Shown here: positions 5,489 to 11,042 of the stretch, piece after piece
Position numbering within the stretch: position 1 is the first letter of the stretch
How the letters are laid out: each line of letters starts with the position of its first letter
Assembly: GCA_016872355.1 (NCBI GenBank)
Contig: VGZY01000017.1
Span: 1 to 44,731, forward strand
Source of the DNA: SAR202 cluster bacterium
GTDB taxonomy: Bacteria > Chloroflexota > Dehalococcoidia > Lucifugimonadales > VGZY01
DNA: 44,731 bases
Reading direction: 5' to 3'
The notes under the pieces: generated by a model
The model's input: only the letters and a program-made list of their open reading frames with translations
What the model was told of the DNA's origin: nothing
Database searches by the model: none
Program-made: the position numbers and the translations under genes

Positions 5489-5517
5489 TATAAACCCATA
5501 GTTGATGGCTTTTCCAT

Positions 5518-5588
5518 AGCGTGATCGTCTAGTGGTAGGACAGCCGCCTTACAAGCGGTTTACGTGGGTTCGAATCCCACTCGCGAAA
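5518..5588 (+). tRNA. tRNA-Val (anticodon TAC)
   Basis: A full cloverleaf can be drawn. The D-arm is GTC/GAC at 5527-5541. The anticodon stem is GCCGC/GCGGT (5543-5547 with 5555-5559) with loop CTTACAA, giving TAC at 5550-5552. The T-arm is GTGGG/CCCAC around TTCGAAT (5564-5580). The acceptor stem pairs only in its inner five positions; the outer two are A/A and G/A. No CCA is encoded. The mismatches could be real or reflect a boundary misread. Confidence 0.78.
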
Positions 5589-5594
5589 GTTCTC

Positions 5595-5634
5595 GAGGGA
5601 CGACATGCATTTTCCATGTCGTCCCTCTCTTTTT
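5595..5634 (+). terminator. Terminator of tRNA-Val
   Basis: AGGGACGACATG (5596-5607) pairs perfectly with CATGTCGTCCCT (5615-5626) around a 7-nt loop, and CTCTTTTT follows. It starts within 10 nt of the tRNA end and is a textbook intrinsic terminator. Confidence 0.92.
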
Positions 5635-5639
5635 ACGGC

Positions 5640-5669
5640 TTGACCTCCGTTGTTGCGGTGTGCTAGCTT
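5640..5669 (+). promoter_or_regulatory. Promoter for the T-box/leuS transcript
   Basis: TTGACC at 5640-5645 and TAGCTT at 5664-5669 with an 18-bp spacer resemble a sigma-70 promoter. It lies directly after the tRNA-Val terminator and about 40 nt before the T-box stem I. TAGCTT also appears as the -10 element of the MFS gene promoter near 18776. Confidence 0.55.
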
Positions 5670-5704
5670 GTCTCATCACAGTTACGAATTCAGTAATTTG
5701 CGTT

Positions 5705-6003
5705 GACGGGGAGTAGTAGCGGTCTGCAGGGCCATAGAGAGCCGGGGATGGTGGAATCCCGGCGCACCTCAACCGCGAACTCGCCCCCGAGCATCTTGCC
5801 CGAACGTGGCCGTCGGCTGTTGGGTCTTCACCGACTACCAACTACTTACTACCGACTACCGCTTCAAGGCAGGACGGCATGGCGCCGTTAACGCCGTTGA
5901 GCGGGCCGCTCCCGGTGTTTATCGGGAAGGCAATCAGGGTGGTACCGCGGGACACAACGAAATACGGTCCCGTCCCTTTGTGGGGCGGGACTTTTTGTTT
6001 TTG
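5705..6003 (+). promoter_or_regulatory. T-box riboswitch (leader of leuS)
   Basis: The T-box core AGGGTGGTACCGCGGG is at 5936-5951. Stem I begins with AGAGAG at 5736-5741, and its distal hairpin is 5741-5749 with 5756-5763. CTC codons at 5768-5770 and 5780-5782 are candidate leucine specifiers, which fits leuS downstream. The terminator stem 5967-5976/5982-5991 is followed by TTTTTGTTTTT. Uncharged tRNA-Leu should pair with the core and block termination. A simple repeat at about 5828-5865 is inserted between stem I and the core, making the leader unusually long. Which CTC is read was not proven. Confidence 0.9.
5828..5865. repeat. Simple repeat inside the T-box leader
   Basis: CCGACTACCAACTACTTACT and a following ACCGACTACC match the reverse of the GTAGT repeat at 4817-4846 and 23865-23890. 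Its position between stem I and the T-box core suggests insertion into a tolerant linker of the riboswitch. Confidence 0.6.
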
Positions 6004-6873: not shown

Positions 6874-9537
6874 ATGACAACCACATCACGCAGCACAGAG
6901 CTACGCTACAGCCCCGCGGAGATTGAGGCCAAGTGGCGCGAGCGGTGGGCGAAGGACAGGCTCTACGCGGTGCGCGACGACGATCCGCGCCCCAAGTGGT
7001 ACGAGATGACGATGTTCCCGTACCCCTCCGGCGATATTCACATGGGCCACTGGTACGCCATGGCCCCTTCGGACGCGCATGCACGGTTTCGCCGGATGCA
7101 GGGCTACAACGTGCTGCACCCCATGGGCTTCGATGCGTTCGGCCTGCCGGCGGAGAACGCCGCGATCAAGCGCGGCGTCCACCCGTTCACCTGGACGATG
7201 GCGAACATCGAGAAGATGCGCGGCCAGCTAAAGACCATGGGCACCATCTACGACTGGGACCGCGAGGTAGTGACCTGCACCCCGGAGTATTACCGCTGGA
7301 ACCAGTGGCTCTTCCTGCAGTTCTACAAGGCCGGGCTGGCTTACCGCGCTTTCGCGCCCGCCAACTGGTGCCCTTCGTGCAACACCGTCCTCGCCAACGA
7401 GCAGGTGACGGACGACGGCAAGTGCGAGCGCTGCGGCACCGTTGTCACGCGCCGCGAGCTGAACCAGTGGTTCTTCCGCATCACGAAGTACGCCGAAGAG
7501 CTGCTCGACCACTCAAAAATAGAGTGGCCCGAGAAGATCAACCTGATGCAGACGAACTGGATTGGCCGCAGTACGGGCGTCAGGATCGATTTCGATCTGG
7601 AGAAGGGGTACGGCCCCGATTCGCCGGGCTCCTACGGGGTTCAGAGCAAAGTACAGGGTACGGGGGACGGTGAAATCCAGACGAAGCTGACGACCTTCAC
7701 GACGCGCATAGACACGATCTACGGAGTCACGTTTGTCGTCATTGCCCCGGAGCACCCGCTGGTGCCGAAGCTGACGACCGCCGAGAACCGCGCCGCGGTG
7801 GAGGCTTACATCGAGCAGGCGCGGCGACAGACGGAGGTGGACCGCATGTCCACTGAGAAGGAGAAGACGGGCGTCCCCACCGGCTCGTTCGCCGTCAACA
7901 AGCTCACCGGCGAGCGCGTTCCGATCCTCGTCGGCGACTACGTCCTGCTGACGTATGGCACGGGCGTGGTCATGGCCGTGCCGGCGCACGACCAGCGCGA
8001 CTTCCAGTTCGCGAAGAAGTACGGGTTGCCGGTGAAGGTCGTCATCGCCCCGCCGGAAGCCTCACCCTCACCTGTCGCTAACGCGACATCCTCTCCCGTC
8101 GAGGGAGAGGAAAAAATTGAGCTGACGGAGGCGTTCACCGGCGTCGGCACAATGGTCGCCTCTGGCCAGTTCAACGGCCTGAAGAGCGACGTTGCGAAAG
8201 AGCAGATCGCCGAGTACGTGGAGTCGAAGGGCTGGGGCAAGCGCACCGTGCAATACCGCATGCGCGACTGGCTCATTTCGCGCCAGCGCTACTGGGGCAC
8301 GCCCATCCCAATCATCTATTGCCCGGACTGCGGCGAGCAGCCCGTGCCGGACAGGGACCTGCCCGTCGTGCTGCCCCAGGACGCGGAGTTCAGGCCGACG
8401 GGGGAATCACCGCTCGCGCTGCACCAGGGCTTCGTCAACACGAAGTGCCCGAAATGCGGCAAGGCCGCCAGGCGCGAGACGGACACGATGGACACGTTCG
8501 TTGACTCGTCGTGGTACCAGATGCGCTACACGAGTCCGCACTTCGCAGGCGGCCCGTTCGATCCGAAGGCGATCAAGAAGTGGAATCCCGTGGACCAGTA
8601 CACGGGAGGCGCCGAGCACGCAGTGATGCACCTGCTCTACGCGCGCTTCTTCAACAAGGCGATGCGGGACCTTGGGCTGATCGACTTCGACGAGCCGTTC
8701 GTCCGCCTCTTCAACCAGGGCCACATCCTCTCCAAGGGCGAGAAGATGAGCAAGTCGCGCGGGAACGTCGTCGCGCCGGACGAGTTCGTGAACGTCTACG
8801 GTGCGGACGTCGTCCGCTGCTACCTTATGTTCCTTGGCCCGTGGGACATGGGCGGCGAGTGGAACGAGGGGGGCGTCAACGGCATGGCGCGTTGGATGAA
8901 CCGCGTGTGGGAGATTGCCTCGCGCGACCCGGCGGAGCTGGACGCCGCGCCGGTGGACGAGACGGCAGTGCGCGAGCTGCAGCGCTCAACGCACAAGACG
9001 GTAAGGCATGTCACGGACGACCTGGCGAAGTTCAAGTTCAACACGTCGCTGGCCGCGCTGATGTCGCTCACGAACACGATGAACGCGGCGTGGGAGAAGG
9101 GTACGGGGGACGGGGTACGGAGGACGGGGGAAGGCGGCGAAGGGGCAAAGGGGGTACGGAGCGCCGGGGCCTCAGGCGGGGGCTCGGTAGGGTCTGCCGC
9201 CTGGCGGGACTCGGTGGAGAAGCTGCTGGTGCTGCTTGCGCCGATGGCGCCGCATATGGCGGAGGAGATGTGGGAGCGCACCGGCCACGCCTACAGCATC
9301 CACAACCAGCCGCAGCCGGTGTCGGACGCCGCGCTGGCGGCGGACGACGTGATCACGCTGGTCGTCCAGGTCAACGGCAAGGTGCGCGACAGGCTCGACG
9401 TGCCGGTGGGCGTGACGGAGGCGGAGGCGCGCAAGATCGCGCTGGAGAGCACGCGCATCCAGGCGCACCTGGAAGGCAAGCAGGTAGCCAAGTTCATTTA
9501 CGTGCCAGGCAAGCTGGTGAACATTGTGGTGAGGTAG
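6874..9537 (+). CDS. leuS: Leucyl-tRNA synthetase
   Basis: This 887-aa class I synthetase charges tRNA-Leu. The signature HMGH is at residues 56-59 and KMSKS at 624-628. A zinc-binding-like CPSCNTVLANEQ segment lies near 167, and the CP1 editing domain occupies roughly 220-410. The anticodon-binding helices and a C-terminal domain with VVQVNGKVRDRL follow. Three stretches look like repeat-derived insertions. The 15-mer GGGTACGGGGGACGG is at 7656-7670. A REP palindrome (about 8071-8115) encodes SPSPVANATSSPVEGE. Repeated GGGTACGG units at 9099-9160 encode a Gly-rich loop. All keep frame and fall in variable loops, so the enzyme is probably active. The T-box at 5705-6003 is its likely control. 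Confidence 0.97.
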   Translation: MTTTSRSTELRYSPAEIEAKWRERWAKDRLYAVRDDDPRPKWYEMTMFPYPSGDIHMGHWYAMAPSDAHARFRRMQGYNVLHPMGFDAFGLPAENAAIKRGVHPFTWTMANIEKMRGQLKTMGTIYDWDREVVTCTPEYYRWNQWLFLQFYKAGLAYRAFAPANWCPSCNTVLANEQVTDDGKCERCGTVVTRRELNQWFFRITKYAEELLDHSKIEWPEKINLMQTNWIGRSTGVRIDFDLEKGYGPDSPGSYGVQSKVQGTGDGEIQTKLTTFTTRIDTIYGVTFVVIAPEHPLVPKLTTAENRAAVEAYIEQARRQTEVDRMSTEKEKTGVPTGSFAVNKLTGERVPILVGDYVLLTYGTGVVMAVPAHDQRDFQFAKKYGLPVKVVIAPPEASPSPVANATSSPVEGEEKIELTEAFTGVGTMVASGQFNGLKSDVAKEQIAEYVESKGWGKRTVQYRMRDWLISRQRYWGTPIPIIYCPDCGEQPVPDRDLPVVLPQDAEFRPTGESPLALHQGFVNTKCPKCGKAARRETDTMDTFVDSSWYQMRYTSPHFAGGPFDPKAIKKWNPVDQYTGGAEHAVMHLLYARFFNKAMRDLGLIDFDEPFVRLFNQGHILSKGEKMSKSRGNVVAPDEFVNVYGADVVRCYLMFLGPWDMGGEWNEGGVNGMARWMNRVWEIASRDPAELDAAPVDETAVRELQRSTHKTVRHVTDDLAKFKFNTSLAALMSLTNTMNAAWEKGTGDGVRRTGEGGEGAKGVRSAGASGGGSVGSAAWRDSVEKLLVLLAPMAPHMAEEMWERTGHAYSIHNQPQPVSDAALAADDVITLVVQVNGKVRDRLDVPVGVTEAEARKIALESTRIQAHLEGKQVAKFIYVPGKLVNIVVR

Positions 9538-9568: not shown

Positions 9569-9780
9569 CCTAGTCCATTCGCAGGTAGCGCAAGCCTTAT
9601 CGTTATGCGATATTAAAGTTGTCCCAAGGAATTGAGCCACACGATTCAGACGCAGCAGCGCAAGATCCGGGAAACTGGAGTATTCACTGAGGCAACTGGA
9701 ACGAGGGCAAGGTCCCTTGGGACACCTGTTTTTGATGCAGTGAGGGGGCAGTCACATTTGACTGCCCCCTCACTGTGTTT
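9569..9780 (+). ncRNA. Structured RNA, copy 1, unknown class
   Basis: TGTCCCAAGG (9620-9629) pairs perfectly with CCTTGGGACA (9715-9724), closing a roughly 105-nt domain. An inner hairpin TCCGG-GAAA-CTGGA carries a GNRA loop. A perfect 17-bp terminator (9738-9754 with 9759-9775) and TGTTT follow. Copy 2 starts exactly 1158 bp to the right. It keeps the closing stem, the GAAA loop with a compensatory pair change, and about 50 nt of upstream sequence (CCTAGTCC through GCGATATTAAAG). The next gene is convergent, so this is not a leader. I do not recognise the class. The true 5' end is uncertain. Confidence 0.65.
9738..9780 (+). terminator. Terminator of structured RNA copy 1
   Basis: The stem 9738-9754/9759-9775 is 17 bp and perfect with loop CATT. 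TGTTTG follows. Because the stem is symmetric, it could also stop the convergent hicB-like transcript. Confidence 0.85.
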
Positions 9781-9797
9781 GCTGGGAGTCTGCCGCT

Positions 9798-10010
9798 TCA
9801 GGATACTGAGACGAAGGTTGCGGAGGACTGTGAAGGCGGGATTGGCAGGCCGTCGTCCTGCAGCCCTTTGACATGCATCTCAATGGCCCTATGCATATTT
9901 CGCTCAGCCTCGCGGCGGGTCCTCCCAGTGGCGACACAGCCTGGAAGGTCAGGCGAGTATGAGGAGAAGTATTTATCTGCTTTCTCAGTGACGATAAGGA
10001 AACGATGCAT
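9798..10010 (-). CDS. HicB-like antitoxin, orphan
   Basis: This 70-aa protein has the HicB fold signature: FSSYSPDLPGCVATGRTRREAERNMHRAIEMH in the usual order. HicB proteins neutralise the HicA mRNA interferase. No hicA is found on either side, and the next gene upstream on this strand is a MazF-type toxin, so this is a solitary antitoxin or a regulator. A DNA-binding tail common in longer HicB forms is absent. The gene lies between two copies of a structured RNA. Confidence 0.8.
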   Translation of the reverse strand: MHRFLIVTEKADKYFSSYSPDLPGCVATGRTRREAERNMHRAIEMHVKGLQDDGLPIPPSQSSATFVSVS

Positions 10011-10056
10011 TCCTGGTGTTCCTTTTAGGCCACTTTGCGTCTATTCGGTATCGCGC

Positions 10057-10410
10057 TTAGCGGCTCTTGGCCGCTAGCCCGAACAGCTTCCTCAACTTCG
10101 CGTTAACCTCGGCCTCGTTGCTCACAGGAATTAAGCCAAGCTCGCGCTGGACACCGGATGTGGAGATCGTCATAAGGCGGTGCAGGCGAACCGTAGACGG
10201 CACTTTCAGCCCGGAGACTTCGTTGCCTGGCATGTGAGGGTCGATAAATATATCGGATGGCTGTGGGTCTGGCGGGGCTTTGCTGGTGATGAACGCCACG
10301 ACGATGTGAGAGTTGGCGCCGATAGGCCGGGTAAGGCATAGTGCGGGTCGGACCTTGTTTGCGGCAAGGTCATCGAACGGGAACGGCAGCAGGACGATCT
10401 TACCCTTCAT
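10057..10410 (-). CDS. MazF/PemK-type toxin
   Basis: This 117-aa protein fits the PemK/MazF mRNA-interferase family. It begins MKGKIVLLPFPFDDL, followed by KVRPALCLT, and has the later S(T/S)VRLHRL segment. These toxins cut RNA and are held by an antitoxin. ATG 10410 is preferred over the upstream TTG because it lies inside the end of the antitoxin gene, an 11-nt overlap typical of coupled TA operons. The order is antitoxin then toxin on the minus strand. Confidence 0.85.
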   Translation of the reverse strand: MKGKIVLLPFPFDDLAANKVRPALCLTRPIGANSHIVVAFITSKAPPDPQPSDIFIDPHMPGNEVSGLKVPSTVRLHRLMTISTSGVQRELGLIPVSNEAEVNAKLRKLFGLAAKSR

Positions 10411-10654
10411 GTGATACAAGTTTGCCGTCAGCCAGAGAGTAGATGTCTTCCTCGGGATCGTTGAGGAACTCGAAGGCGGGGTTGTTAGTGACGGCCTGTA
10501 GCCACTCTAATTCGGATATATCTTCGTACCCCGCAGGCAGCACTATGACCCGCACGCGGCCTTCGCCGAGCTCGGTAATCGGCTCGTCCAGGTGGAGGTT
10601 GCCGTTTTGGTCAACCGTTCCAGACGCTTCAACTGCGCGGACTGAGGACTTCAT
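10400..10654 (-). CDS. Antitoxin of the MazF-type pair
   Basis: This 84-aa protein starts with a short beta-rich segment, SGTVDQNGNLHLDEPI then GRVRVIVLP. It ends in an acidic tail, FEFLNDPEEDIYSLADGK. That layout is common in small antitoxins paired with MazF or PIN toxins, where the tail wraps the toxin. The toxin starts within its last codons. The family name is uncertain; the role comes from context and layout. Confidence 0.8.
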   Translation of the reverse strand: MKSSVRAVEASGTVDQNGNLHLDEPITELGEGRVRVIVLPAGYEDISELEWLQAVTNNPAFEFLNDPEEDIYSLADGKLVSHEG

Positions 10655-10726
10655 CCTGGGTCTCCCGGAGCTCGATGTTTAATTGATAGCCCAATCGCGG
10701 GCAAATTACAAGTCTCTGCACGTCGG

Positions 10727-10922
10727 CCTAGTCCGTCCGCAGGTAGCGCAGCGCTTCCAGGTATGCGATATTAAAGTTGTCCCAAGGAACTGAGCGGACA
10801 TCACAGTTACAGCAGAAGCGTATTGGGAAACCGAGAGCATCTGAAGTAGGTGAGATGATCGCAAGGTCTCTTGGGACACTTGCTTTTAGAAGGGCCCCGC
10901 CGTCGGGGCCCCTCTCTTTTTT
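10727..10922 (+). ncRNA. Structured RNA, copy 2, unknown class
   Basis: This is the paralogue of the RNA at 9569-9780. TGTCCCAAG (10778-10786) pairs with CTTGGGACA (10870-10878). The inner TTGG-GAAA-CCGA hairpin keeps the tetraloop while its stem differs from copy 1 in a compensating way. An extra CATCT/AGATG hairpin lies at about 10838-10857. A terminator (10892-10899 with 10904-10911, then CTCTCTTTTTT) ends it. The next gene starts about 120 nt later, so this copy could alternatively be an attenuator, but copy 1 has no gene to attenuate. Confidence 0.65.
10891..10922 (+). terminator. Terminator of structured RNA copy 2
   Basis: GGGCCCCG pairs with CGGGGCCC around CCGT, and CTCTCTTTTTT follows. 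It is a strong intrinsic terminator. Confidence 0.9.
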
Positions 10923-11042
10923 GCCGCCGGACCGGCCTGCGTGCCGCCACGCCTTCCTCCAAACTTGCGCCTGTGATGTCCACGGCAGATAATGGGGAAC
11001 TGTCCGGTATCCGGACGCATCCCCGTTGAGTGGACTCCGCCC

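Follow-up and report, generated by a model that had tools for sequence, protein, structure and literature searches.

A family of rod-shaped non-coding RNAs predicted in Dehalococcoidia and other Chloroflexota, with two copies in a SAR202 genome

Two related RNA-like segments in a SAR202 contig

The stretch of DNA analysed here, termed the window, comprises all 44,731 nucleotides of contig VGZY01000017.1 from a SAR202 cluster bacterium (assembly GCA_016872355.1; Chloroflexota, Dehalococcoidia). Positions 5517-5980 contain a tRNA-Val gene (TAC) and then a T-box leader that scores strongly against RF00230 (99.6 bits); a leucyl-tRNA-synthetase-like gene follows downstream at 6874-9537. Beyond this gene are two related segments, copy A (9604-9734) and copy B (10762-10888), which both lie on the plus strand and are offset by exactly 1158 bp. 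The minus strand between them carries a gene for a MazF/PemK toxin, together with one small antitoxin-like ORF and another ORF resembling HicB.

The two copies share 74% identity across 165 bp (blastn, E 6.6e-18). Their rod cores (9619-9726 in A, 10777-10880 in B) reach fold z-scores of -6.05 and -8.10, respectively, against dinucleotide shuffles, none of which folded as well (0/200), and the plus-strand cores fold better than their own complements. Between A and B, 5 of 30 base pairs have changed in a compensatory manner and none is broken. The closing helix, UGUCCCAAGG paired with CCUUGGGACA or UCUUGGGACA, measures 10 bp, or spans 14 bp with one mismatch bridged. Inward from this helix the rod continues through a 1x1 mismatch, 3 bp and a GA/AA loop into short helices with symmetric purine mismatches, and it ends in an apical hairpin capped by GAAA, where A and B differ by a compensating C-G/U-A change.

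Upstream, the copies have in common the -10-like TATGCGATATT and a 22-bp element that occurs nowhere else in the window (0 expected from shuffles). This element stands where relatives of the copies have a TTGACA box, and it is perhaps an activator site or a site for another sigma factor. Terminator hairpins of different sequence lie downstream of A (approximately 9738-9775) and B (approximately 10888-10917). The window copies thus deviate from the family described below by lacking TTGACA and by having a second terminator. The features are compiled in Table 1.

A sequence-only reading of the locus had described two related segments at this spacing, each with a closing stem of 9-10 bp, a GAAA hairpin with a compensating pair change, a conserved upstream sequence and a terminator of its own, and all of these observations hold. 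The closing stem and the GAAA hairpin do not make up the architecture alone, but are parts of one long, irregular rod. Its remark that one copy has no downstream gene in its orientation applies to copy A.

Table 1. Features of the two RNA copies in the window
Feature	Position	Strand	Remarks
Conserved upstream element, copy A	9571..9592	+	exact pattern in window only here and in copy B
-10 region, copy A (TATGCGATATTAAA)	9604..9617	+	identical in B; aligns with extended -10 of relatives
Rod-shaped RNA core (predicted), copy A	9620..9724	+	fold z -6.05; covariation
Closing helix, copy A	9620-9629 with 9715-9724	+	part of rod core
Apical GAAA, copy A	9671-9674	+	part of rod core
U-tract and downstream terminator hairpin, copy A	9729..9775	+	
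Conserved upstream element, copy B	10729..10750	+	pattern shared with copy A
-10 region, copy B	10762..10775	+	identical to A; aligns with extended -10 of relatives
Rod-shaped RNA core (predicted), copy B	10778..10878	+	fold z -8.10; covariation
Closing helix, copy B	10778-10787 with 10869-10878	+	part of rod core
U-rich tract and downstream terminator hairpin, copy B	10882..10924	+	

Relatives in Dehalococcoidia and beyond

Rfam 15, searched at permissive thresholds, yielded no credible match at A, B or the loci of their relatives, and a literature search, from whose coverage subscription papers were mostly absent, found no such RNA described in Chloroflexota. Since blastn in 59 relatives of the order returned short chance matches only, covariance models were required, one built from the two window copies (R1) and one from 12 sequences (R2). 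The R1 search revealed relatives in nine further genomes of the order, and together the models recovered more than 130 relatives. R2 matched 28 of 250 genomes of the order (SAR202), 82 of 393 genomes of the class (Dehalococcoidia) and 34 of 400 genomes sampled from the phylum (Chloroflexota). Model matches on the reverse strand of the window copies are palindromic echoes of the rod and were rejected as additional genes. A scan of 84,980 species genomes with an exact pattern gave 8 matches, all in genomes named Dehalococcoidia, SAR202, Chloroflexi or Chloroflexota. Five genomes, among them G256, harbour 3-5 dispersed copies each, several of which are located very near contig ends, perhaps because the assembly was broken at repeats.

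In an alignment of 71 sequences, which was built to fit the structure of R2 and hence leans towards it, 84% of the cells are paired and 373 are double-changed, compared to 151 after shuffling; the structure collapses once the partner columns are slid by one. A MAFFT alignment of 12 sequences that was not fitted to R2 points in the same direction (34 versus 19), and a phylum-wide MAFFT alignment supports the closing helix only. The earlier notion of an unrecognised structured RNA, for which covariance models from relatives had been proposed as a check, is thus backed by strong covariation across the 71 sequences as well as by the Rfam scan.

The family members share further elements. Among the 132 relatives whose upstream sequence was long enough (window copies left out), the best sigma-70 promoter match agrees in a mean of 9.8 of 12 letters, as opposed to 6.8 in shuffles, and 107 relatives have an exact TTGACA. 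The distance from the end of the -10 box to the closing helix is mostly 5-7 nt, and therefore, transcription is predicted to start at about the first base of the helix. In the relatives this helix comprises 13-17 bp. The family consensus reads GUCCCaAGUaaYcRAGc ... gcRAGGUuaCUuGGGgC, after which comes a U-tract. A near-consensus promoter, a start at the helix and a U-tract predict free-standing RNA genes, in agreement with the independent small RNAs put forward previously. Just inside the closing helix, ahead of the next 3 bp, a loop reads RA/RA in 53 of 71 sequences, where tandem sheared purine pairs are expected. Of 134 RNAs, 56 contain an RGUA-stem-GAA module, the signature of a loop E, whereas shuffled sequences gave 9.2 +/- 2.7; GNRA accounts for 52 of 100 tetraloops. 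The minimum-energy fold is a single hairpin in 87% of the RNAs.

Judged from sequence, it is nearly certain that A and B are paralogues encoding a rod-shaped non-coding RNA that ends in a terminator and is absent from Rfam, and that this family of approximately 105-200 nt RNAs with their own promoter is conserved across the class Dehalococcoidia as well as in other Chloroflexota.

Genomic neighbourhood

The recurrent neighbour of the rod RNA is a gene for HPRT. Of 129 RNAs with enough downstream sequence, 75 are convergent with an HPRT gene within 500 bp, at a median distance of 9 bp, and in much of the class this gene encodes a fusion of a GAF domain, an unassigned domain and HPRT. In four genomes RNAs lie beside two different HPRT genes each. 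When fused-HPRT loci were taken from genomes without an R2 match, an RNA was present at the predicted place and in the predicted orientation in 6 of 9 cases, three of them in single-contig genomes of 1.4-1.5 Mb that belong to one genus. In another Chloroflexota class the RNA is again convergent to HPRT, at a distance of 304-341 bp. Owing to the conserved spot beside hpt, the RNA can readily be found in isolates for which transcriptomes exist.

HPRT proteins fused at the N terminus to a GAF domain, with an unassigned domain in between (e.g., L090:937-2388), are widespread in Dehalococcoidia and are possibly sensor-regulated purine-salvage enzymes. Pfam finds nothing in the middle domain, which resembles PD-(D/E)XK by eye only, and the AlphaFold model of the fusion is unusable (mean pLDDT 36).

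The rod RNA might be functionally tied to its HPRT neighbour, fused or plain, either bound by the enzyme or regulating it. Such a tie would be in line with the close convergent arrangement, the occurrence of an RNA beside each gene in the two-HPRT genomes, the success of position in predicting missed RNAs, the persistence of the linkage in another class and the GAF sensor domain of the fusion. Moreover, PyrR provides an example of a phosphoribosyltransferase that binds RNA. Yet, the HPRT domain of the fusion is by sequence an ordinary HGPRT, far from PyrR, many RNA copies adjoin unrelated genes at many loci, and adjacency can be inherited without function. Above all, the window genome (97.6% complete) keeps two RNAs while having no HPRT homologue at E <= 1e-15 (21 of 22 compared genomes have one), and thus, the RNA cannot depend on HPRT everywhere. 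The window lineage may employ a different purine salvage, or its HPRT gene may lie in the missing part of the genome. Weakened by this genome, the HPRT tie appears rather unlikely, even though it is the main rival to a function on RNA polymerase.

Convergent genes also raise the question of whether the long inverted repeat is merely a two-way transcription terminator and no RNA gene at all. In most relatives no gap separates the U-tract from the closing helix, and the end of the RNA frequently abuts the stop codon of hpt, as would suit a terminator, but a near-consensus promoter is directed into the rod at 107-120 of 132 loci, G-U pairs are conserved and the plus strand folds better. The inner loops and apical modules are conserved as well, and the window copies and many others have a separate terminator and no convergent gene. 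We consider this explanation very improbable.

The window copies flank mazF-like and hicB-like genes, and the sequence-only reading had considered a link to the genes they enclose, which would make them regulators of this toxin-antitoxin locus. This link has to be given up: the relatives reside at many unrelated loci, where the recurrent neighbour is the convergent HPRT gene and toxin-antitoxin genes do not recur. The proximity seems incidental, and a role in toxin-antitoxin regulation is improbable in the extreme. A type I or III toxin-antitoxin RNA was likewise rejected, given that the relatives' neighbours show no recurrent toxin linkage. A cis-regulatory leader (riboswitch, T-box) was discarded too, as copy A has no same-strand downstream gene and most relatives face a convergent gene.

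Relation to 6S RNA and putative function

Of 81 distinct Dehalococcoidia genomes, only one had a detectable 6S RNA. This RNA is common elsewhere in Chloroflexota, with matches in 32 of 131 genomes from the phylum, all of them outside the class. In the phylum searches no genome was positive for both R2 and 6S. Within one family (f141), 6S without an R2 match occurs in two genomes of a single genus, and an R2 match without 6S in four genomes of other genera, presumably part of the 6S sample; this complementary pattern is suggestive, albeit not significant alone. The complementary distribution may in part be a detection effect, because R2 is less sensitive outside the class. Genome G256 carries a clear 6S RNA beside and directly downstream of aspS (L183, C227) in addition to five rod RNAs; GC content does not mark the contig as foreign, but the bin is 9% contaminated. 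The 6S model (RF00013) matched neither the window loci (E up to 5) nor the loci of the relatives (E up to 1), and it detected no 6S RNA in the window genome. The rod RNA, an apparently undescribed non-coding RNA that extends over the phylum, is present in marine SAR202 bacteria, a lineage in which no 6S was found.

The definition of 6S RNA requires, between its closing and apical stems, a large central bulge on the 5' side that faces a hairpin (PMC8414754). Single-hairpin folds are adopted by 87% of the rod RNAs versus 25% of Chloroflexota 6S RNAs, and the consensus folds of the rod RNA contain no conserved bulge of the 6S type. Since the rod RNA fails the structural definition, we call it a new family and do not claim 6S membership.

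The explanation we prefer, with a probability of roughly 40% for family and function taken together, is that of a housekeeping, protein-bound RNA, most likely a regulator of RNA polymerase akin to 6S or Ms1. A strong sigma-70 promoter would drive abundant synthesis of the RNA, whose long duplex and purine-rich internal loops would serve to bind a protein machine. RNA polymerase is the best candidate for this machine, and the outcome would be a global growth-phase control like that exerted by 6S, Ms1 or CoRP, in lineages without detected 6S. The pair in the window genome would then represent a lineage-specific duplicate, comparable to the two 6S RNAs of Bacillus subtilis. A general regulator, which had also been suggested for the two segments, is possible.

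A 6S/Ms1-like function ranks as the single most likely mechanism, favoured by the single-hairpin closed rod in 87% of the folds, the paralogues in one genome, the near absence of detected 6S in the class as against its detection elsewhere in the phylum, the lack of genomes positive for both RNAs in the phylum sample and the precedent of Ms1/CoRP-type RNAs (PMC11077062). The polymerase reading is weakened because a 6S-type bulge is missing and conservation resides in the closing helix and the purine loop instead of a central bubble, because G256, with its contaminated bin, carries both RNAs, and because up to five copies per genome are more than usual for 6S.

Several copies per genome would also be compatible with a trans-acting or protein-titrating small RNA that engages another partner, e.g., a translation regulator on the purine-rich loops, just as CsrB-type RNAs titrate CsrA. 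The symmetric purine-rich loops, the excess of loop-E-like modules over shuffles and the frequent GNRA tetraloops point in this direction. Between families, though, the purine-rich inner loops are conserved in character and not in sequence, and apart from its loops the RNA offers no conserved single-stranded segment that could base-pair with a target. We deem this alternative unlikely.

Going further along the polymerase reading, the rod RNA could be the Chloroflexota counterpart of Ms1/CoRP, i.e., a new global regulatory RNA on RNA polymerase or another central machine, which replaced 6S in Dehalococcoidia and whose place beside GAF-HPRT may couple it to the purine/ppGpp state. This extended proposal is conceivable, though doubtful. 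Should the rod RNA indeed bind RNA polymerase, this would lend support to the proposal of a polymerase-bound RNA of some kind in all bacteria (PMC11077062).

Comparison with known RNAs

The Chloroflexi-1 motif (RF01698) is likewise a structured RNA described from Chloroflexota; it is listed for Chloroflexus aggregans only (PMC2864571), and in Rfam scans it did not match the rod RNA loci. Bacterial SRP RNA (RF00169) is, like the rod RNA, a rod of approximately 100 nt in which the internal loops are symmetric and a GNRA loop is present. Identity with SRP RNA was rejected: the SRP RNA of the window genome is encoded elsewhere (C1:97670, 72.3 bits) and the rod has no RF00169 match.

With 6S RNA (RF00013) the rod RNA shares a free-standing gene, a sigma-70 promoter and a closed rod, as well as paralogues in some genomes, a conserved neighbour and a housekeeping-like spread. 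Unlike 6S, it has no RF00013 match and lacks the large 5' central bulge with its opposite hairpin, its conserved sequence is the closing helix, and it is shorter in SAR202. The 6S RNA of Chloroflexota is a separate gene that is not near HPRT. A further hallmark of 6S is that it binds sigma-70 RNA polymerase and serves as the template for pRNA.

Ms1 and CoRP of Actinobacteria, to which the rod RNA is likened by description and not by sequence, are longer (approximately 300 and 500 nt, respectively). CoRP binds RNA polymerase and is neither 6S nor Ms1 (PMC11077062). Both RNAs serve as precedents for the rod RNA, being structured, unrelated to 6S in sequence and bound to RNA polymerase in bacteria where 6S was not found (PMC11077062).
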